Shown in pieces: positions 144 through 8,696 of a stretch of 30,727 bases of DNA. Position 1 is the first letter of the stretch; each line of letters opens with the position of its first letter. The position numbers were made by a program, and so were the translations under genes. The DNA lies in assembly GCA_947174735.1 (NCBI GenBank), contig CAMWKC010000002.1, positions 1-30,727 on the forward strand, read 5' to 3'. Source of the stretch: an uncultured Porphyromonadaceae bacterium. Its GTDB lineage: Bacteria > Bacteroidota > Bacteroidia > Bacteroidales > Muribaculaceae. The notes beneath the pieces are model-generated. The model was not told the DNA's origin. It saw only the letters and a list, made by a program, of their open reading frames with translations, and searched no databases.

Positions 144-458
144 TCATCTTGAAGATGCTATAATTGAACCGAAGAATATCAAAAGTATAATAATTCCGAT
201 AAATGAAATCACTAATCCTGCGATTGCAAGTCCACGCGGTCTCTTAAAAATACCGATAAAGGAGAAGAGAGCACCAAGAAACCAAAGAATAAAATCGAGT
301 ACCGGTACCCAACAGAATACAAAGGTCAGAAGTGCGAGGATGAAACCAGCTACTCCCAATCCATTGCTTTTCCTGTCAACATTGACATAGACAGTCTGTG
401 TCTGACTCCCAGGAGTTCCGAAATTCGTCTGTGACGAATCAAGATTGTCGTCTTCCAT
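144..458 (-). CDS. Small membrane protein, DUF4190-like
   Basis: This 104-residue protein has a polar N-terminus of about 30 residues rich in Asn, Gln, Ser and Thr. Two hydrophobic hairpin-like segments follow, at about 33-68 and 75-100, joined by a short basic loop (KRPRG). The arrangement, with glycine-rich helices and the GLGVAGFILALL start of the first segment, resembles the small DUF4190-type membrane proteins common in Bacteroidetes; this is a resemblance, not a proven membership. It lies 152 bases downstream of the SH3-protein gene on the same strand, so it may be the last gene of the envelope cluster or stand alone. No catalytic motif is visible. The function is unknown. Confidence 0.7.
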   Translation of the reverse strand: MEDDNLDSSQTNFGTPGSQTQTVYVNVDRKSNGLGVAGFILALLTFVFCWVPVLDFILWFLGALFSFIGIFKRPRGLAIAGLVISFIGIIILLIFFGSIIASSR

Positions 459-610
459 ATAATAAAATAAATAGATGCTATGCTCTATCCCAAAGCAAGC
501 AAAGTTTAAAATAAATTAAAAGCGTGGGATAATTCGCTATATTATCAGAGTAGCCACAGGTAATTTAAAACCTTTATAAACTAAGAATCAGAATTTTATT
601 TAATATCATC

Positions 611-1642
611 TTAGTCATTATTACATGGCCGATATTGTTCACCATCTTCAAAGATTATTCCATTATAATAGAAAGTCTGTTCAGGACTTTCCCCATAATA
701 TGTGACTCCGTCTTGTTCCAAACCTGAAAAGTTTTTTTCAATCACATAATTCAGACCCATAAAATCCCATTTATACCATTCTATCATGTTTCCCTTTATA
801 CGTCCGAGTCTGACATAACAAGAAGCAGGTATAATCTGTCCTTTATCATTTAAACCATTCATTTTTTCGGTATATACCATAATTAGATTACCCTGTCTTG
901 CAAATTCCATCATTCCATCTTTACTCCGGTACGTTATATTCTCTTTCGGAGCGTCGGAAGGGATTGTCGAAAGATCGTAGTCATAGTCATTAGCATACCA
1001 AAAATATTCTCCTGATACAAAGCCGGAAGCACCATTCCCAAGATCTATTTCAAACCAAGTATCGTACTCAGAAGTCACATGTTTTTTCTTCACTTTATAG
1101 ACTTTACCCATAGGAGCTTTGCCGATAACGGTTCCGTTTACGGGTGCTTTACGGATATTGATATTATGGGATTGGGCAGAAACTACCCATCTTTGGCGGT
1201 TAGGATCAGGGAAAATCAGTTGAGCCTTTTCCATCATAAGCTTTACTGAATTTTTTACAGGGTCATATTCCGCTTTCCAACAGAAGGTTTCGTCAAGTTG
1301 AATAAGCTCTACATCATCGAATCCCGGATCACTATAAAGGGTTACTGTGAATTCCACTTCATTATCCTTAAACTTAGGATTACTAAAGATAGCTAAATAA
1401 GCCCACGGAGCATCCTCTATATAACCTTGGTAATAACCATAGGGTGATGAATATCCTTCTATCTTCAAATTTGGATCAGGCTTTTCAAATGATGAGATAA
1501 AATTATTGGGCCAACTATAAAACTCTTTATCATAATTTATGAATTCCCACTCACCATTCGGAAAACCAGCATACATTATCAGTTCTCCGGTTAGCCATAG
1601 AAAAAACAATACTAAAAATCGTTTGATGTTTATACTACACAT
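611..1642 (-). CDS. Secreted protein with bacterial SH3 domain
   Basis: This 343-residue protein begins with a short basic stretch and a hydrophobic segment (about 8-25) that reads as a signal peptide. Residues 26-150 are an unassigned region rich in aromatic residues. Residues about 155-218 look like a bacterial SH3 domain: NIRKAPVNGTVIGKAPMGK, then a TWFEID strand and GASGFVSGEYFW, the usual end of SH3_3 domains. Such domains usually bind peptidoglycan or a protein partner outside the cytoplasm. The rest (220-343) is not recognised. The gene starts 8 bases after the stop of the preceding lipoprotein gene, so the two are almost certainly co-transcribed. The SH3 call is good; the biological role is unknown. 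Confidence 0.8.
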   Translation of the reverse strand: MCSINIKRFLVLFFLWLTGELIMYAGFPNGEWEFINYDKEFYSWPNNFISSFEKPDPNLKIEGYSSPYGYYQGYIEDAPWAYLAIFSNPKFKDNEVEFTVTLYSDPGFDDVELIQLDETFCWKAEYDPVKNSVKLMMEKAQLIFPDPNRQRWVVSAQSHNINIRKAPVNGTVIGKAPMGKVYKVKKKHVTSEYDTWFEIDLGNGASGFVSGEYFWYANDYDYDLSTIPSDAPKENITYRSKDGMMEFARQGNLIMVYTEKMNGLNDKGQIIPASCYVRLGRIKGNMIEWYKWDFMGLNYVIEKNFSGLEQDGVTYYGESPEQTFYYNGIIFEDGEQYRPCNND

Positions 1643-1650
1643 AATCTATT

Positions 1651-2820
1651 TTATTTATTCATTTTGCTCACGTTCACTACTTTGAGAGTAAAAGAGTAAG
1701 TCTTTCCCTCATAAGAAGTCATCTTACCTGTATAGGTATCTTTAGTAAGAGTACCGATAAAAGTACCGGTTACTTCTCCTTTGTCGTTAGTTTCTTCAAG
1801 AGTAAGTTCTCCGGTACGGTCGTTAAAGGCCTTTACGCTAAGTTCCAGTGTGTTTTTTGTACCATATCGGTCATAATAGTAGCTACCATGTTTCATTCCT
1901 TTATCAAGATTCAAATGGATAGCATACTTTCCTCCAAGTTTACCCGCTAACTTATATGGTCCATAAGAAAGACGTTCTATCTTACCCGGATCTTCGCCAT
2001 GGGCTTTAACATAATTGCTATATTCGTCTCCACGAGGTTCATAATTTTTGAAAAATGAATCTTGTGATGGGGTGTTCATTGTAATGGCTATCAATGATTC
2101 ACCTTGGTGAAATGAATACTTAAACGGTATCTGTACACTACCACGCCCCGGAATATCCTTACCCGGCTTTATTTCTGTATGGTGGTCTTCATATCCCATG
2201 TGCATATAATCATATTGCCATGTTGTAGAATATTCATCGCCTCCTATAGGTTGGTCAGTAGTATTTTTAAGGGTGTAATATCCCTCACCTATTTGATACC
2301 CATACTCAACCTCTACAGTGATAGTAGGTCCGAGATTCTTAATTGCACCTTTTCGAGAAGCTACATACTCGTTAAATAATTCTGTAGAAAGATTATCCAC
2401 ATTAATCATGACTTTAGCAAGTTTTTCATCAGTCATATCAGAATGTAGAGCTCCAAGTTTACGGGCAAACAGGATTTTGCTTTCAGGATATTTAAAAAGT
2501 CCTTTCGTTTCATTCACAGTTATATTTCCATTCGGAAGTAATGTGACCAACATTGAGAGACCGTTATCGAAGGTGACGTAATATGTATTTTCTTTCTCTC
2601 CATCTTTTACTGAAATACTGTCAGGATTATATGTCAAATCAATTTTATCAGCATATTCAGCAGCAGGATAATAAGATAGTATCGAATCGATTTCATTACG
2701 ACTTACATATTGTGCAAATCTATCGGCAAATGTTTTTACTTTTGTTGTGCGCTTGTCGGTACATCCTGTAATAGTTAAAGCCACAATAACCGAAAAAACT
2801 GTAATTATTTTTAGTTTCAT
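1651..2820 (-). CDS. Lipoprotein of unknown function
   Basis: Starting at 2820, the 389-residue product opens with a lipoprotein signal peptide (MKLKIITVF..., lipobox ITGC, Cys20). An in-frame ATG at 2865 would add 15 residues and overlap the upstream stop as ATGA. I prefer 2820 because it puts the basic-hydrophobic-lipobox order at the N-terminus and has an A-rich start context. The mature protein has no domain I recognise. The last 100 residues or so (GKLGGKYAIHLNLDKG... GTFIGTLTKDTYTGKM) look like the beta-rich repeats that measure calorimetric-type or MORN-like surface proteins, but this is weak. The gene sits between the transglutaminase-like gene and the SH3 gene and probably shares their transcript. 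Confidence 0.8.
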   Translation of the reverse strand: MKLKIITVFSVIVALTITGCTDKRTTKVKTFADRFAQYVSRNEIDSILSYYPAAEYADKIDLTYNPDSISVKDGEKENTYYVTFDNGLSMLVTLLPNGNITVNETKGLFKYPESKILFARKLGALHSDMTDEKLAKVMINVDNLSTELFNEYVASRKGAIKNLGPTITVEVEYGYQIGEGYYTLKNTTDQPIGGDEYSTTWQYDYMHMGYEDHHTEIKPGKDIPGRGSVQIPFKYSFHQGESLIAITMNTPSQDSFFKNYEPRGDEYSNYVKAHGEDPGKIERLSYGPYKLAGKLGGKYAIHLNLDKGMKHGSYYYDRYGTKNTLELSVKAFNDRTGELTLEETNDKGEVTGTFIGTLTKDTYTGKMTSYEGKTYSFTLKVVNVSKMNK

Positions 2821-2861
2821 TTTATTTATACACGTAAAAGTGAAAAAGGCAGATAGTCGGT

Positions 2862-4355
2862 TCATAACCTTATTTTGTGTACTTCCGGTCTGGCGTTCAG
2901 AAACTCAGCGGCCAGATAGCCGGCTTTGGCACCAATACATGTCGGGTCGCAAACTGTGTAGGTCTGGCCGTCGATAGAGACTGTAGCTCCTTTTACATTG
3001 GTACCGGGCGAGAATTTTACTGCTGTAGCGAGATGAAGAGGGAATTTCAGGTAGACCACATCGAGACCGAGAACGGCATTCACAAGTTTTGCAAACATTA
3101 TAGCACGGTCTTCGCAGTCGTTGTAGGGGTAGTAGAAATTCTCGTCAAAGAAGAATGGCTTTTCACGGCCGAACTGATCACCGTCGGTCATGTATTCAAA
3201 GCCATAGTTATGAAAACTGAGCAACAGATTGACCGCTTCTTCTTCTCCGAGTCCTTCGGTAAGAATTTCCATTACCGGAAACAGAGTAGACTGTAACTGT
3301 TCGCTGACCGGAGCAAGACCGTAGATGTGCCAGTCAACCTGCGGATAAGAGTTGAAAAATTCTACTACCGAAGAGTTGACAGTAACTTCAAACGGTGGTG
3401 CTTTCTTCCACGAAGCCGATGAATAGGTCTTAGCAGCCGAGACTTTCGGTGACAGACGTGGATATCGGTCAATAGTCATTCTTATCGGTGTCGGCGACTT
3501 ACGAAAATCACCGCTATAGGTATAAAAAGACGTATTTTCGTCAGTCATCTGTCCGCGTATAAAATATGCCTTACCGTCTATATTATAATATGGTTGGCCG
3601 TAGAGAGTATGAGATGGATGAAACATCACCATAAGTTTCCCACCTTTAATACCGAGACGACAATCATAACCCGACTGATTGAGAAGTGCAACAGTAAGAA
3701 AAGCCTGACTGTCGGCAGATTTCGGATAAAGTGTAGCTGCGACCTTCTCTATCAGCAGAAGATAAGCCCAGTCACACAGTTGCAACTCTTCACGCAGACG
3801 CAGACAATCATTCAGCAGCGGTTCCAATTTTTCGTTGGCTGTAAGTTGTTTCCATGTCTTTGCCAGTGATGAGTTGTCAGTAGCATTTAGGGAAAGTGCT
3901 GATGTATCAAACTGCTCTATACCGCATTGGGTATTGAAGAATGTAAAATTGACCGGATATGTTTTCCGTATTTCTGGTGTAATCTTCGGAATAGTAACAG
4001 GAATATCCGGTATAGATTTTTCTGGTTCGGTTACACCACTTATCACGACTTTACGTGGCTGTACAGGGCTGTCATCACGTACTACAATAGGCTTTACTGG
4101 TTTAGGTTTTGTCGGAATTTCTCTGCTTGGTTCTTTTTTATACGCTTTCCACTCTCCGGCTATCATAGCGGCATACTCCTCATTGAGCTGTTTTCGATAC
4201 AGCTCAAATTCTGTTTTCTTCTCCTCTCGGAAGCGTTCAAACTCAGCTTTCTTTTCCTTACGAAAATTTTCGAAATCAGAAGCCGCAGTGTTTTGAGCTT
4301 GCACACCGATAAGAGAAAAAAGCAGTATTATGATCAGGAAAACCGATAGTCTCAT
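2862..4355 (-). CDS. Secreted transglutaminase-like protein
   Basis: This 497-residue protein has a clear signal peptide (1-20, ending VQAQ). Next comes a charged coiled-coil (about 26-75) built from EKKAEF/REEKKTEF-type repeats, then a proline-rich linker (75-130), an unassigned middle, and a C-terminal transglutaminase-like fold. The probable Cys-His-Asp triad is visible as Cys414 (NDCEDRA), His441 (PLHLATA) and Asp470 (VCDPT). Members of this superfamily include transglutaminases, cysteine peptidases and peptide-crosslinking enzymes; which reaction applies here cannot be read from sequence. Export suggests a periplasmic or surface substrate. A hairpin at 4387-4426 separates it from the LamG gene upstream. 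Its stop overlaps a possible upstream ATG of the next gene. Confidence 0.82.
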   Translation of the reverse strand: MRLSVFLIIILLFSLIGVQAQNTAASDFENFRKEKKAEFERFREEKKTEFELYRKQLNEEYAAMIAGEWKAYKKEPSREIPTKPKPVKPIVVRDDSPVQPRKVVISGVTEPEKSIPDIPVTIPKITPEIRKTYPVNFTFFNTQCGIEQFDTSALSLNATDNSSLAKTWKQLTANEKLEPLLNDCLRLREELQLCDWAYLLLIEKVAATLYPKSADSQAFLTVALLNQSGYDCRLGIKGGKLMVMFHPSHTLYGQPYYNIDGKAYFIRGQMTDENTSFYTYSGDFRKSPTPIRMTIDRYPRLSPKVSAAKTYSSASWKKAPPFEVTVNSSVVEFFNSYPQVDWHIYGLAPVSEQLQSTLFPVMEILTEGLGEEEAVNLLLSFHNYGFEYMTDGDQFGREKPFFFDENFYYPYNDCEDRAIMFAKLVNAVLGLDVVYLKFPLHLATAVKFSPGTNVKGATVSIDGQTYTVCDPTCIGAKAGYLAAEFLNARPEVHKIRL

Positions 4356-4386
4356 AACGTATAAAAAGGTGAAAAAATAGATAAGT

Positions 4387-4426
4387 GAGAATCCACCGAA
4401 AGCGTTACCGTCTCCGGCGGATTCTC
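4387..4426 (-). terminator. Intercistronic hairpin, probable (partial) terminator
   Basis: A 12-bp stem (4387-4398 with 4415-4426, one G-U pair in the minus-strand RNA) is followed on that strand by a U-rich run near 4367-4380. It lies after the LamG lipoprotein gene and before the transglutaminase-like gene. No Bacteroidetes-type promoter is visible between hairpin and next start, so it may lower rather than stop transcription. Confidence 0.6.
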
Positions 4427-4451
4427 CTAAGATTTTAATATCAAGAACTGA

Positions 4452-6116
4452 TTACTGTCTTGCGTTGTAGATTTCCTTAACTTCTTCAGCTGTTAACAAG
4501 CGCGAATCATAAATTCGGAAATTATCTACAGTAAAATTCGAGGTAGTGAGAGAATAATTATAGAAAGTTGCTTTACCTCCTATTATAAATGAATTTGGAT
4601 AAGATGTTTCACTCTCTGCACCATTTCTGGTTTCAGTAATTGTACTTGCTCGTTTTCCGTCAATGTAGAGAATTGAGGTCCAAGTTCGCTCATAATAGGA
4701 TTTATCAGTATATTCACTAATAATTGCAATATGATGCCATGTGTTACCTGTTATATTACTATGGATGAAACTTCTATCATCATTTTTGTAATTACTTTCA
4801 TGTGAATTATTATTTGCATAACATACAAACTTCAATCTGCCACTATCCATTGAGAGGGTAAAGCGGTTATAATTATCTGAGCATTTGGAATAAAATATAA
4901 CACCGTCATTAAGGTCTTTTACCCAAAAACTTATTGAGAAAGTCTTATTGGAAATCATACCGTAAGGTATCAGGATTGAACTTTCATTAGCTTTTGAGAA
5001 CTGAGCTGCCTGACCTGATATACCGGTTACGAACGTTGGGTCATTAATACCGAAACCATCATATTCGCCCATTGTATCATCATAGTTATCATTCAGGGTA
5101 TAGTAGGCTGCCAATCCGTTGGTCACAACAAGTTTACCGGGATCGTCACCAGGGCCTGGTTCATCACCTTCCCCCGGAGTTGTACCACTGCCACTACTGG
5201 TTATATTTACAGTAATAGTCTGGTCAATAATGCCGTCTGAGATAATAAAAGTAGATACCATATCACCTGATACCAAGCTACGATCAACCGTAACGATTAT
5301 CACAGAGTTACCTCCACCATTTACAGTACCTTGTGTAGCTGACAGACTTAGAGCCGGAGTAGTAATGTTATTGGCTCGCCATGTTAAAGGTGCATTACCT
5401 GTATTGCGGATAGTAAAAGTCTGCTGGGTAAGATCAGAGCCGAAGTTCAGTGTCGTAGGTTCGATGACCATGTTGCTGCTTGTGTTGCGAGGTGCGCAGG
5501 AAATGGTCAAAGGATAGGAATTGCCGAAGGCTTGTAGGTTGACAACAGTAGTCTTAGGTTCGGAAATGTAATTGCGGTCAACCGAGAACGTGATGCTCTG
5601 AGTACGTCCGGCCTGAATCGAACCGCCAAGCTGAGAGGCCGATAGCCAGGGATTATTGCCGAGATTGAGCGACCACTCAGCGGTAGTATTACCGTTGTTT
5701 TTGATTGTTACACTCATATCGGTCTGTGTAGTACCGAAATTAAGCGAAGAGGGATTGATAACAATCTCAGCTACTTCGTTTACTTTAGTTAGCTGAATAT
5801 CGCATCGGTTTTCCTGACCTGCCACAACATTGACAGTACGTGTATTGGTGTTGTAACCGGTCTTTGAGAATTGCAGCGAATACTGTCCCGGCTGCATAGC
5901 AGTAAAAGAAAAAGTACCGTCACTTCCGGTAGTTGTGCTTCTACCGTTAGCGAGAATCGAAACAGTAACTCCGGAAATAGGTTCTGTTCCGGTACCTGAC
6001 TCAGTTACATAGCCTGTTATGGAACCTGTGGACTCCTCAGGCTCTTCCGTACAAGAAGTAAGCGAAAGTATAGTCACAAGCAACGCAAGTGACAGAAGTT
6101 TGAAAATACTTTTCAT
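4452..6116 (-). CDS. Multidomain surface lipoprotein: carboxypeptidase-regulatory, BACON-like and LamG-like domains
   Basis: This 554-residue protein has a lipoprotein signal (lipobox LTSC, Cys22) and an acidic spacer. A carboxypeptidase-regulatory-like beta-sandwich spans about 32-110 (GSITGYVTES... GVTVSI... TGSDGTFSF). Two similar beta domains follow at about 115-208 and 214-306, each opening with INPSSLNFG or IEPTTLNFG, as in BACON or ASPM-SPD2-Hydin-like modules. A Gly/Pro/Glu/Asp linker covers 308-328. The C-terminal part, about 332-554, has LamG/concanavalin-like features (NGLAAYYTLND, WHHIAII, LYIDGKR, VDNFRIYD). Such modules usually bind carbohydrate or protein at the cell surface, and no catalytic domain is seen. 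It is 42 bases downstream of the DUF5683-like gene, so co-transcription is likely. Confidence 0.85.
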   Translation of the reverse strand: MKSIFKLLSLALLVTILSLTSCTEEPEESTGSITGYVTESGTGTEPISGVTVSILANGRSTTTGSDGTFSFTAMQPGQYSLQFSKTGYNTNTRTVNVVAGQENRCDIQLTKVNEVAEIVINPSSLNFGTTQTDMSVTIKNNGNTTAEWSLNLGNNPWLSASQLGGSIQAGRTQSITFSVDRNYISEPKTTVVNLQAFGNSYPLTISCAPRNTSSNMVIEPTTLNFGSDLTQQTFTIRNTGNAPLTWRANNITTPALSLSATQGTVNGGGNSVIIVTVDRSLVSGDMVSTFIISDGIIDQTITVNITSSGSGTTPGEGDEPGPGDDPGKLVVTNGLAAYYTLNDNYDDTMGEYDGFGINDPTFVTGISGQAAQFSKANESSILIPYGMISNKTFSISFWVKDLNDGVIFYSKCSDNYNRFTLSMDSGRLKFVCYANNNSHESNYKNDDRSFIHSNITGNTWHHIAIISEYTDKSYYERTWTSILYIDGKRASTITETRNGAESETSYPNSFIIGGKATFYNYSLTTSNFTVDNFRIYDSRLLTAEEVKEIYNARQ

Positions 6117-6158
6117 TTTTGTTAGTTATAAGGTTATTATTTATATTGTTATGTAAGA

Positions 6159-7028
6159 TTAGAAATTCATCGCAAAGCCTATACCTACTCCGTTGTCTGT
6201 CACAACAGGTGTAAATGAATATTGATAGGGCCGCTTGTTTACCACCACTCTGCGACGCCCGGGCGCTACGGCAGCGTCAATCAGATTATACAGATATACA
6301 GCGGCTGTAGCACCTATAGCTATATTACGTCCGGTTTCCCATGAAGATTTCTTATTACGATAGAAATCGAAATGCTGCGGCCGTTCCTTCATCTTTTTTG
6401 CGTAGTTAGCACGCTGGTTCTCGCAAAGTATTATAGCTGCTGCTCCTACAGCTGTACCGCCTAAAAACAAACCGCCTTTCAGATAACTGCCCTTAGTAAA
6501 CTGACCGACACCCGGAATAAGGGAATAAAACACAGGAGCCGCACCATAAGATGTAGTGAGGGTGATACGATCGCTGTAACTGCCTTTACCCGGCTGAGTA
6601 TTGTCGTTAACTGTGTAAAGCACTGTGACGATATACCGATTGTTCTTACGTTCCCAATATTCATCGATTGCACGGCAGATAAGATTTATCTGTTTACCCT
6701 TTTCACTGGCTTCAAGTGTAAACTCCTGAGTCTTAACCGGTCCACTACCACGCTCAGCCCGCTTCTCTATCTTTACATGGCTGTCTATTACTATACCTCG
6801 CTCATGTTCAAGCTTTGAGGTAAGATTAACTACTGCCATCTGGCGTGCTTCCTCCAGAGAAATTCCTGAACCTTGTGCTGAGATAAAGATATAACCCTGG
6901 CTTTTCGGAACAGGCAGTGAAGAAGTCATCCAGCGTGGTTTAAGTCGGTCAGACTTATCAGTAGCGCTTACAGATGTTATACTAAACATCAATACCGCTA
7001 TCAACAGAAATATACGGTTTAACATCAT
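6159..7028 (-). CDS. Envelope protein with LPP20-like N-half and DUF5683-like C-half
   Basis: The open frame extends upstream to 7157, but 43 of those residues would overlap the preceding gene. The start at 7028 gives a proper signal peptide (MMLNRIFLLIAVLMFS, ending SVSA) 10 bases after the upstream stop. The 289-residue product has a first half resembling LPP20-type lipoprotein domains (SLEEARQMAVVNLTSKLE, followed by a strand-rich part). The second half has the motif SLIPGVGQFTKGSYLKGG (about 169-186) and two glycine-rich hydrophobic segments, as in Bacteroidetes DUF5683 membrane proteins. It probably acts at or in an envelope membrane. It is the second gene of the cluster that starts at 7671. 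The function is unknown. Confidence 0.78.
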   Translation of the reverse strand: MMLNRIFLLIAVLMFSITSVSATDKSDRLKPRWMTSSLPVPKSQGYIFISAQGSGISLEEARQMAVVNLTSKLEHERGIVIDSHVKIEKRAERGSGPVKTQEFTLEASEKGKQINLICRAIDEYWERKNNRYIVTVLYTVNDNTQPGKGSYSDRITLTTSYGAAPVFYSLIPGVGQFTKGSYLKGGLFLGGTAVGAAAIILCENQRANYAKKMKERPQHFDFYRNKKSSWETGRNIAIGATAAVYLYNLIDAAVAPGRRRVVVNKRPYQYSFTPVVTDNGVGIGFAMNF

Positions 7029-7038
7029 CGTAGAGCAA

Positions 7039-7671
7039 TTAACGATTTTCTTTCTGTTGCTGACGGAAACGTTCAAGTTCTTCGCGGTAGGAATTGCGGA
7101 ACTGTTGTTCATGAAATTCCACACCAAGACGTTCGTCCTCATTGATAGTAGCTGCACCGGCTATCTTTTCGGCATCGTTAGCCGGAATACTTATACACAC
7201 CGAACATTCGTACGTACCGTCAGAAAGACGATAACGGTTTGAACAGATGACACGACAGTTTTTAACTACGCCTTCAGCCATCGAACCTACATCCTGACGT
7301 ATATCTCCTTCGTTTGAGGTTTTACCACTGGCCTGAAGTTTTGCGCGATACCCTTTTTCTACATTAATTACAAGTGACTCAAGACGATCTACAAGGTTAG
7401 CTTTTGCAAACAATATAGCCTGATGATAAGCAAAATCACGATCTTCGTCTATAGCCGAGCCGTATGAACGAAACTCATTGGCCGGTGCATTCATAGATTC
7501 CTGCTGACATTCATCAATCTCTTCTTTAACTTTGCTTACTGTACGCGGACCATTATTACCCTGCGTTGTATATTCCGGATAAGAAGCTTTGACTACTTTT
7601 TTTGCACTACAGGAAGGCAGGCCAAGCGATATCATAAGTACCGCTATTAAGCTTAATGACAGTCGTTTCAT
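7039..7671 (-). CDS. LPP20-like lipoprotein
   Basis: This 210-residue protein begins with a lipoprotein signal peptide (lipobox LPSC, Cys21). The segment AYHQAILFAKANLVDRLESL (about 81-100), followed by strands ending in YECSVCISIPA, matches the general pattern of LPP20-type domains: an Ala-rich helix that starts a small alpha/beta fold. The C-terminal 30 residues are a charged helix ending in QQQKENR. The next gene, 10 bases downstream, has a similar N-terminal half, so the pair may form one complex. It is the first gene of the envelope cluster. Its upstream region holds the inverted-repeat pair at 7710-7867 and no recognisable minus-strand promoter. Confidence 0.78.
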   Translation of the reverse strand: MKRLSLSLIAVLMISLGLPSCSAKKVVKASYPEYTTQGNNGPRTVSKVKEEIDECQQESMNAPANEFRSYGSAIDEDRDFAYHQAILFAKANLVDRLESLVINVEKGYRAKLQASGKTSNEGDIRQDVGSMAEGVVKNCRVICSNRYRLSDGTYECSVCISIPANDAEKIAGAATINEDERLGVEFHEQQFRNSYREELERFRQQQKENR

Positions 7672-7709
7672 TGGAATTACGTATTATGAAAGTTATAAGT
7701 AGGAGGTCT

Positions 7710-7867
7710 TATCTCTTAGTAAGAGATACTTTTATACGTAACTCTCTAATAATCAATGGTCCGATAATTGATTTGTTAAACAGAAATAAAAAATTACATA
7801 AAATATTAGTATTTTTAAGCTGATTTTTATAATTTTGCATCAATTTAGTATCTCTTACTAAGAGATA
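7710..7867. repeat. Pair of 21-bp inverted repeats flanking a promoter segment
   Basis: The arm at 7710-7730 and the arm at 7847-7867 are identical over 21 bases when one is reverse-complemented; 116 bases lie between them. Each arm is itself nearly palindromic (TATCTCTTA, one G or C, TAAGAGATA), so read as direct repeats they still match at 20 of 21 positions. The right copy extends to a 27-base palindrome (7845-7871). The pair could be recombination sites of an invertible promoter segment or two operators for one dimeric regulator. No recombinase gene is present in the window. Confidence 0.85.
7830..7837 (+). promoter_or_regulatory. Candidate -7 promoter element inside the inverted-repeat segment
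   Basis: TAATTTTG fits the Bacteroidetes -7 consensus TAnnTTTG. A weak -33 match (TTAG, 7806-7809) lies 20 bases upstream. The expected start of transcription, near 7844, falls at the edge of the right-hand repeat. Confidence 0.5.
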
Positions 7868-7909
7868 CTAACATTTTGATAATAGAAAGTTAAAATATAT
7901 TATCACAAC

Positions 7910-7917
7910 TATCTTTG
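7910..7917 (+). promoter_or_regulatory. Candidate -7 promoter element before the small ORF and HAD gene
   Basis: TATCTTTG fits TAnnTTTG exactly. No good -33 TTTG is seen 19-21 bases upstream. A transcript from here would start about 15-20 bases before the 31-codon ORF and would serve the HAD phosphatase gene. Confidence 0.4.
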
Positions 7918-7940
7918 TAATACAGCAGCTTAGCTTCGGC

Positions 7941-8036
7941 ATGGAAGTAAAGAGAATTAAGTACGATAAAATCACGATAGCTTTTGATAATGCAGAACAT
8001 ATTATTTTTCTTGGGTGGTTGGGAGGATTTAGTTAA
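7941..8036 (+). CDS. Possible 31-residue leader or small protein
   Basis: An ATG-initiated frame (MEVKRIKYDKITIAF...) ends at 8036, 9 bases before the HAD phosphatase start. It follows a good -7 element at 7910-7917. The product has a charged N-half and a hydrophobic, glycine-rich C-half (HIIFLGWLGGF). It matches no small protein I know. It could be a translated leader, a small membrane protein or the remnant of a larger gene. No Shine-Dalgarno sequence is visible. The reading is tentative. Confidence 0.35.
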   Translation: MEVKRIKYDKITIAFDNAEHIIFLGWLGGFS

Positions 8037-8045
8037 ATTCGCGTT

Positions 8046-8696
8046 ATGGATACAGTGATATTTGATTTTGACGGCACACTTGCCGATACCCGCGAGAGCA
8101 TTATAACCACAATGGCAGAAACTATGCGTGTTTTAGGTCGTCCCGATGCTGATGCAGAGATGATGACTTCAATGATAGGACTACCTTTGAAGGAGGGTAT
8201 ACGCAGAGCGGCAAGAATTGAGGATGAGAAAGCGCTTGACGATGCCGTTACACTTTACCGTAAGATTTATAAAGATACTGCTCCGCACACTATAAAGCTT
8301 TATCCCGGTGTGAAGAAGACATTAGCAACTCTTGCCGCCGAGGGTTACAGGCTTGCTGTGGCTACCAGCCGTGGTAAGGAATCACTCAAACAGATGCTTG
8401 AGACGATGGTAATAGACCAACTGTTTACTGTACTGAAAGCTGACGAAGATGTAATAAATAAGAAACCCGCACCTGATATGGTACGGGATATACTGTCTGA
8501 GCTGAACTGTTCGCCGGCTGATGCTATGATGGTAGGTGATACTTCATTTGATATTGAGATGGGTAAAAGTGCAGGAGTGAGGTCGTGTGGTGTCACATAC
8601 GGAAATCATAATCGCTTTCAGCTCATCGAAGCCGGAGCTGATTATGTGATCGATTCGATTACAGAAATTATACCTTTACTAACATCTCAAAGCTGA
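8046..8696 (+). CDS. HAD-family phosphatase, phosphoglycolate phosphatase-like
   Basis: This 216-residue protein has all four HAD motifs: DFDGT at 7-11 (nucleophile Asp7, acid Asp9), ATS at 106-108, Lys140 in KKPAPD, and GDTSFDIEMG at 164-173. A helical cap lies between motifs I and II, as in the phosphoglycolate phosphatase/beta-phosphoglucomutase subgroup. The cytosolic enzyme presumably removes phosphate from a small sugar phosphate or phosphoglycolate; the exact substrate cannot be read. The length is normal for the family. It ends only 2 bases before the end of the convergent GH53 gene, so the two transcripts must overlap. Confidence 0.9.
   Translation: MDTVIFDFDGTLADTRESIITTMAETMRVLGRPDADAEMMTSMIGLPLKEGIRRAARIEDEKALDDAVTLYRKIYKDTAPHTIKLYPGVKKTLATLAAEGYRLAVATSRGKESLKQMLETMVIDQLFTVLKADEDVINKKPAPDMVRDILSELNCSPADAMMVGDTSFDIEMGKSAGVRSCGVTYGNHNRFQLIEAGADYVIDSITEIIPLLTSQS

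Follow-up and report, generated by a model that had tools for sequence, protein, structure and literature searches.

A probable invertible promoter facing away from a presumed envelope gene cluster, and a family of similarly built segments in Bacteroidales

The window, by which we mean the whole stretch of DNA analysed here (30,727 nucleotides from an uncultured gut bacterium, apparently of the Muribaculaceae), very probably carries a promoter inverton that now points away from the neighbouring gene cluster and would leave it in the OFF state. This reading is based on arms whose cores are mirrored and specific to the locus, on an outward promoter, on relatives that are found inverted, and on a tyrosine recombinase that adjoins such pairs in other genomes. 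It would add an apparently non-capsule envelope cluster to the genes under promoter inversion, and more than 100 relatives in related gut bacteria are built to the same plan.

The left arm (7710–7730) and the right arm (7847–7867), both given on the plus strand, match at 21 of 21 positions when one of them is inverted, and 116 nt lie between them (7731–7846), as the preliminary description had stated. The left arm contains the 17-nt site ATCTCT-TAGTA-AGAGAT at 7711–7727, with its core at 7717–7721, and the right arm contains the site ATCTCT-TACTA-AGAGAT at 7850–7866, the core of which (7856–7860) is the mirror image of the left one. The left arm is itself palindromic (7710–7728), and the right arm lies within a 27-nt palindrome (7845–7871) consisting of 13-nt arms around one base. 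Read as direct copies (7710–7730 and 7849–7869), the arms match at 20 of 21 positions, which also agrees with the earlier account. Allowing up to three mismatches, 0.04 matches to the palindrome TATCTCTTANTAAGAGATA were expected in the window and two were found; because none of 100 shuffles of the window had two matches, we do not attribute them to chance. The 2.49-Mb assembly of the same genome has six places that match TATCTCTTANTAAGAGATA with up to three mismatches, and the exact matches are only those at the two arms of the window. A palindrome match on another contig of this assembly (C132) was discarded as a chance occurrence because it is partnerless and falls within a coding frame.

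A Bacteroidetes −7 element, TAATTTTG, is located at 7830–7837 on the plus strand, 12 nt from the right 17-nt site and pointing right, and is the predicted invertible promoter. The window thus shares with promoter invertons a segment bounded by inverted repeats and an outward TAnnTTTG inside it, at one arm. Because this promoter points away from the minus-strand cluster that begins at 7671, the cluster is classified as OFF. The minus-strand image of the element, CAAAnnTA, is absent from 7600–8060, which includes the narrower region (7672–7930) where its absence had been noted before; the nearest approaches in 7600–8060 are only two GAAAnnTA sequences, at 7688 and 7885. By coordinate arithmetic, inversion would place TAATTTTG at 7740–7747 on the minus strand, approximately 69 nt before the start codon at 7671, in keeping with the position shortly before 7671 proposed earlier. 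In the assembled orientation, the promoter faces a gene for a HAD-family phosphatase (8046–8696, plus strand, by domain match). A second plus-strand −7 element, TATCTTTG, lies outside the segment at 7910–7917, between it and 8046, and therefore the HAD gene seems to own a fixed promoter.

The site ATCTCT-nnnnn-AGAGAT recurs in pairs across Bacteroidales. The palindrome with at most two mismatches was found in 26 of 61 genomes (the own genome, 36 of the same genus and 24 from other families), with many of the matches forming pairs that have mirror-imaged centres, and a relaxed site, ATCTCTNNNNNAGAGAT, is present in 73 of 101 genomes of the genus, against 7 of 101 for the pattern read backwards. 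When one genome per species was scanned for two sites spaced by 170–200 nt, at least 120 stretches were obtained, and the matches listed include Phocaeicola, Bacteroides gallinarum, Segatella copri, Dysgonomonas mossii, and many Muribaculaceae. The viral collection had no match to the pair pattern, and the plasmids had none to the segment of the window. Among 142 distinct adjacent exact pairs, the two cores are mirror-identical in 134 and directly identical in none. These pairs have 61 different cores, which differ between loci, and random re-pairing of the cores gave a mean of 5.6 mirrored pairs with a maximum of 14. TAGTA, the core found in the window, is more frequent than any other (20 of 142). 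Of the eight exceptions, at least two (L024 and L151) are, judging from their coordinates, arms of neighbouring segments.

All exact sites of two isolates, Phocaeicola vulgatus ATCC 8482 (10 of 10) and P. massiliensis (18 of 18), stand in mirrored pairs with spacings of 175–189. All nine pairs of P. massiliensis share the core TAGTA, so that an exchange between loci is conceivable. In the fragmented assemblies of the genus, 36 of the 76 sites listed stand in exact pairs (by inspection), one is only partly covered by the matches listed, and 39 have no exact partner. Of these 39, 24 have a partner with a mirrored core and at most 3 of 12 mismatches at a distance of 100–290 nt, which none of 780 random-core trials produced. 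The other 15 have no partner in this range even with three mismatches, and three of them are at most 130 nt from a contig end. In one contig of 4917 bases (G012:C109), sites with mirrored cores are located near both ends (51–69 and 4849–4867); either the contig breaks at the sites or a larger stretch is invertible.

The preliminary description held that two operators for one regulator would explain the arms equally well. In this explanation, one dimeric regulator of a divergent promoter region binds both arms, in accordance with the palindromic nature of each arm, the match as direct copies and the partnerless sites in the genus assemblies. Operators should be independent and non-mirrored, and one would not expect the two of a pair to carry mirror images of a core that varies between loci, or to have degenerate partners with the mirrored core. 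They would also have no reason to keep a fixed distance from an outward promoter, to bound segments that are found inverted, or to adjoin a recombinase, as described in the following paragraphs. We therefore reject the claim of equal merit and regard an operator pair as very improbable. The notion that the segment is a small MITE-like mobile element with the arms as its terminal inverted repeats has even less to commend it and can practically be set aside. In its favour are the presence of several copies in a genome and the short inverted repeats at the ends, but the insides are mostly unrelated (162 pairs make up 73 similarity clusters, of which 60 are singletons within the spacing range of 130–250), the cores differ from locus to locus, and the promoter is nearly always directed outward.

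Inversion itself is visible among the relatives of the window segment. A comparison of loci with similar flanks and similar segments, drawn from 138 mirrored pairs, yielded 117 rows, which are not independent of one another; 112 had the same orientation and five the opposite one. In L016 (from genome G005) and L112, the segment is reversed (92.3% identity over 259 nt), whereas the flanks are parallel, with 89.5% over 210 nt to the left, a stretch that includes the left arm, and 77% over 176 nt to the right. The breakpoints are at the arms or within 20 nt of them, and there are also matches between some short repeats at other places in these loci. L135 and L148 are two contigs of one assembly, and their segments are reversed relative to each other between parallel flanks of 96.7% over 1780 nt on the left and 40 nt on the right (arm included). 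The flank evidence for the remaining three inverted rows is mainly one-sided. In the contig G033:C2, the first 81 nt are a perfect reverse-complement copy of its own right flank, suggesting that both orientations or junctions were present in the reads behind the assembly. Of 24 same-genus contigs (three own contigs and one from each of 21 other genomes), nine carry a site no more than 300 nt from an end, compared with an expectation of 1.2, and none of 20,000 simulations reached this number. At L129 (2286–2921), the inverton of an isolate is located between mirrored flanks that are exact for 212 nt; because the similarity continues imperfectly beyond that point, it looks like a real inverted duplication and was left out of the inversion count. 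The arrangement is as if this inverton could drive either of two inverted gene copies.

The promoter keeps a nearly fixed distance from an arm. In 127 of 136 mirrored pairs, an outward TAnnTTTG lies within 30 nt of an arm, at one arm only in 124 and at both arms in three. Its distance from the arm is 12–15 nt in 118 of 132 cases, with a mode of 13 nt (12 nt in the window), and inward-pointing −7 elements amounted to five cases. Nine of the 136 pairs have no such −7, and at least one of these carries TAACTTTC instead. The state of each switch was assigned by a crude rule that looks for an open frame directed away from an arm and no farther than 600 nt from it. Applied to 128 mirrored segments with one clear promoter, it gave 55 OFF and 21 ON; in a further 32 both sides had such frames, and in 20 neither side did. 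Taken together with the arms, this anatomy of the relatives supports the earlier proposal of an invertible promoter facing away from the minus-strand cluster.

Several of these loci have distinctive neighbours. Six pairs in Phocaeicola (L103, L125 and L160 in P. vulgatus, L097 and L100 in P. massiliensis, and L102 in P. sartorii) are all OFF. Each precedes a small gene for an HTH protein, which is AraC-type in L103 and was recognised by eye in the other loci, and large genes come next, with DUF4988 in L125. The large surface-like protein of these loci may be akin to BT1927, which is discussed below. In L236 (G013:C43, 1450–16674), an inverton and its own recombinase precede a long co-directional gene run that encodes FHA, caspase (Peptidase_C14), PP2C phosphatase, and Sel1-repeat proteins and a protein kinase with BACON, apparently a eukaryote-like signalling set under phase variation. 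By eye, an FHA-like protein resembling that of L236 also stands first in L127, and L024 and L201 have a different first protein in common.

A candidate for the enzyme was found beside the pairs. Frames of 400 aa and of the same appearance adjoin the pairs in L009, L011, and L026, and the one in L026, at 244–1446 of that locus, has the domains Arm-DNA-bind_5, Phage_int_SAM_5, and Phage_integrase, i.e., it is of the tyrosine type. Relatives of this recombinase are present in 74 of 101 genus genomes at E ≤ 1e-30. A recombinase-like gene also adjoins the pair at L160 of P. vulgatus ATCC 8482 (NC_009614.1), one of five pairs in that strain. Among the best 30 loci of the matches listed, a site lies at most 500 nt beyond the 3′ end of the recombinase gene in 16, and in three more it lies within 730 nt; none of the same 30 has a site on the 5′ side, and 14 have none within 500 nt. 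Two controls were made with other tyrosine recombinases. In the first, 20 loci were taken from genomes without the cognate type, which are mostly poor in sites because of this choice, and none of the 18 placeable loci had a site. The second control used the best 30 Phage_integrase loci of 12 site-rich genomes, one of which proved to be of the cognate type; none of the other 29 had a site in about 1500 nt on either side. When kinship is ignored, genomes that have the recombinase at E ≤ 1e-100 contain a site in 56 of 64 cases, and those without it in 17 of 37. Genome G007 has six sites and no recombinase of the cognate type at E ≤ 1e-30. In the 18 of 31 recombinase sequences that share the same first six residues, the residues R, K, R, H, and Y, which we presume to be catalytic, are invariant.

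The own assembly, which is 72% complete, contains no recombinase of the cognate type (best match, E 0.002). Its only two Phage_integrase proteins are XerC/D-like and were set aside as the enzyme, as they show no Arm-DNA-bind_5 domain and other recombinases do not adjoin the sites in either control. The same genome has a second pair of arms on contig C48 (2095–2298) with a spacing of 187 and two mismatches in its left arm. Its promoter is 15 nt from the right arm and points away from a minus-strand gene to the left of the pair (953–1966), the product of which is 42% identical over 323 aa to a protein of L013; the latter matches the UpxY model with E 8.5e-18, below the cut-off. With two pairs in one genome, a single enzyme acting in trans could serve both.

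From these observations, we propose the following course of events. A tyrosine recombinase supplied in trans would bind the two near-palindromic sites and bring them together, and strand exchange within the 5-nt core would turn the segment round. As assembled, the promoter would fire rightward and leave the minus-strand envelope cluster behind it in the OFF state. Inversion would move the start of transcription to the vicinity of the left arm, roughly 60 nt ahead of the lipoprotein gene at 7671, and switch the cluster ON. A conserved 5′ RNA hairpin formed by the arm was also considered. The predicted ON leader does fold the arm, but it is no more stable than shuffled sequences (z −0.33; 63 of 200 shuffles at least as good), and we dropped the idea for this reason.

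The distance between the two sites of a pair follows a ladder. In a set of 162 mirrored pairs with at most one mismatch per arm and spacings of 60–400, most of which come from the search at 170–200, the spacings bunch at 174–176, 185–188, and 197–199. In the range of 171–201, 142 of 146 pairs fall into three bands of 7–8 nt, which were chosen post hoc, and four fall into the eight positions in between. The 60 segments without a detectable relative show the same bunching (best period 11.6, R 0.59), which none of 2000 jittered sets reached, and the pattern is repeated in 35 pairs found without a spacing condition, 30 of which are in range; spacings of 222, 244, and 271 are also present among the latter. 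As an out-of-sample set, we used 18 new pairs (spacing 100–290) drawn from the unpaired-looking genus sites, none of which had been used in the old set. They fit the period of 11.30 and the phase fixed on the old set with a mean cosine of 0.60, a value attained by none of 5000 jittered sets, and their own best period is 11.25; the five pairs longer than 212 fit with a cosine of 0.65 and the 13 shorter ones with 0.58. Among 393 genomes of the order, exact pairs at spacings of 139–169 occur only in G488 (163, 164, and 164), one rung below that at 175, and in the own genome (139), and there are none at 201–231.

Helical phasing is expected in short DNA loops, and the ladder of about 11.3 bp suggests such phasing, although shared descent of the lengths may conceivably be its source. 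In a joint reading, which we hold to be about equally open to belief and doubt, the spacing is quantised by one turn of supercoiled DNA (rungs near 163–164, 175, 186, 198, 230, 241, and 253) because the recombinase-bound sites have to face each other when a short loop brings them into direct contact. The mirrored 5-nt core would act as an address, so that a single recombinase could turn many segments of one cell while keeping them from recombining with each other. Its odd length, which rules out self-complementarity at the centre, would make inversion more likely than deletion. The segment in the window would fall short of the commonest length by about three turns. We found no report of the spacing ladder in the literature searched.

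The spacing of the window, 139, is the shortest of the 162 mirrored pairs, the next being 163 in this set found mostly by the 170–200 search, and it matches the phase of the ladder only in part (cosine −0.26 to 0.60, depending on the period chosen between 11.0 and 11.4). The segment may accordingly be a former inverton that is now locked OFF, either because the strain has no recombinase or because 139 bp are too short for good synapsis. The recombinase missing from the own assembly, the short and partly phased segment, and the two mismatches in the second pair on C48 would fit this alternative, whereas the perfect arms, the mirrored cores, and the intact −7 element of the window show no visible decay, and the assembly is incomplete; we consider a locked switch unlikely. 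In preferring a promoter inverton, we counted against it the single orientation in which this locus is assembled, the lack of a cognate recombinase in the own assembly, the short segment, the predominance of equal orientation among the compared loci, the 15 partnerless sites, the 14 recombinase loci without a site, and G007.

The presumed target is a cluster of co-directional minus-strand frames at 144–7671, delineated from open reading frames and domain matches. It starts with a lipoprotein-like protein of 210 aa (by eye; 7039–7671) that belongs to no Pfam family, followed by a DUF5683 protein (6159–7028), a protein with CarboxypepD_reg, BACON, and Laminin_G domains (4452–6116), and further frames at 2862–4355, 1651–2865, 611–1642, and 144–458. 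One cluster protein has a sub-threshold SH3_3 match, and the others have no family. The CarboxypepD_reg/BACON/Laminin_G and DUF5683 proteins correspond to the surface or regulatory genes that lie beyond one arm of an inverton, and the products of the cluster are probably located at the surface. The 7039–7671 protein has no relative in the collection of genome contigs and, besides itself, six weak matches in a search of 60 relative genomes. The order of the lipoprotein, the DUF5683 protein, and a 497-aa protein (2862–7671 in the window) is kept in G020:C64 (L242, 1332–4381), in a genome that has no such sites, and the CarboxypepD_reg/BACON/Laminin_G gene is extra in the window. On the other side, the HAD gene is also found in the genus member G069 (G069:C4), where DNA homology starts only at 7969, to the right of the segment; despite the shared gene, G069 has no homology to the segment itself.

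A search rule that can be applied to sequence alone requires a pair of ATCTCT-n5-AGAGAT sites, mirror images in their cores, and a TAnnTTTG that points outward; this rule also names a candidate recombinase and predicts which arm spacings are able to invert. In the literature searched, we found nothing relevant on the arm string AAGAGAT, on helical spacing, or on invertons of Muribaculaceae. Such motifs usually appear in figures and supplements, so that we do not claim novelty for the arm motif, which may be among those already published. The promoter inverton is a known kind of switch and is well supported for the window, and no record of the envelope cluster as its target was found in the literature searched.

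The following comparisons are based on published descriptions of the systems. According to PMC11892184, invertons can be arranged in groups, which are linked to invertase groups by proximity, and five of the repeat motifs match those of a 2019 survey. In P. vulgatus CL10, a promoter between inverted repeats before upxY was found by PCR to invert (PMC13114119), and this locus is reported to be strain-specific. Like the window, such capsule (upxY) invertons have a −7 promoter between inverted repeats; the CL10 locus also has an upstream recombinase gene, which is defective there. UpxY-like proteins, below the model cut-off, adjoin some of the present pairs as well, whereas the presumed target in the window is apparently not a capsule locus. 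CCGG, the HpaII site of the CL10 inverton, is absent from the three segments of P. vulgatus ATCC 8482 that were examined among its five. A large capsule inverton of Bacteroides is served by the tyrosine recombinase Tsr19 (PMC3090145), and other Bacteroides invertons control resistance genes and adjoin their invertase (PMC8748976). Both have a promoter segment between inverted repeats and a local recombinase, which the window lacks, and the latter share with the window a −7 element of the TAnnTTTG type. The S-layer gene BT1927 of B. thetaiotaomicron is phase-variable, and mutation of one repeat locks its promoter (PMC12548429); that promoter is located between inverted repeats as in the window, although the species and the target differ. 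In Phocaeicola, the present sites precede an AraC-type gene and then a large gene resembling that of a surface protein. With regard to action in trans, a parallel is Mpi of B. fragilis, a single recombinase that turns many scattered segments (as told in PMC5903667). Mpi is a serine recombinase, in contrast to the present candidate of the tyrosine type, and the two would be alike in serving many segments from a distance.
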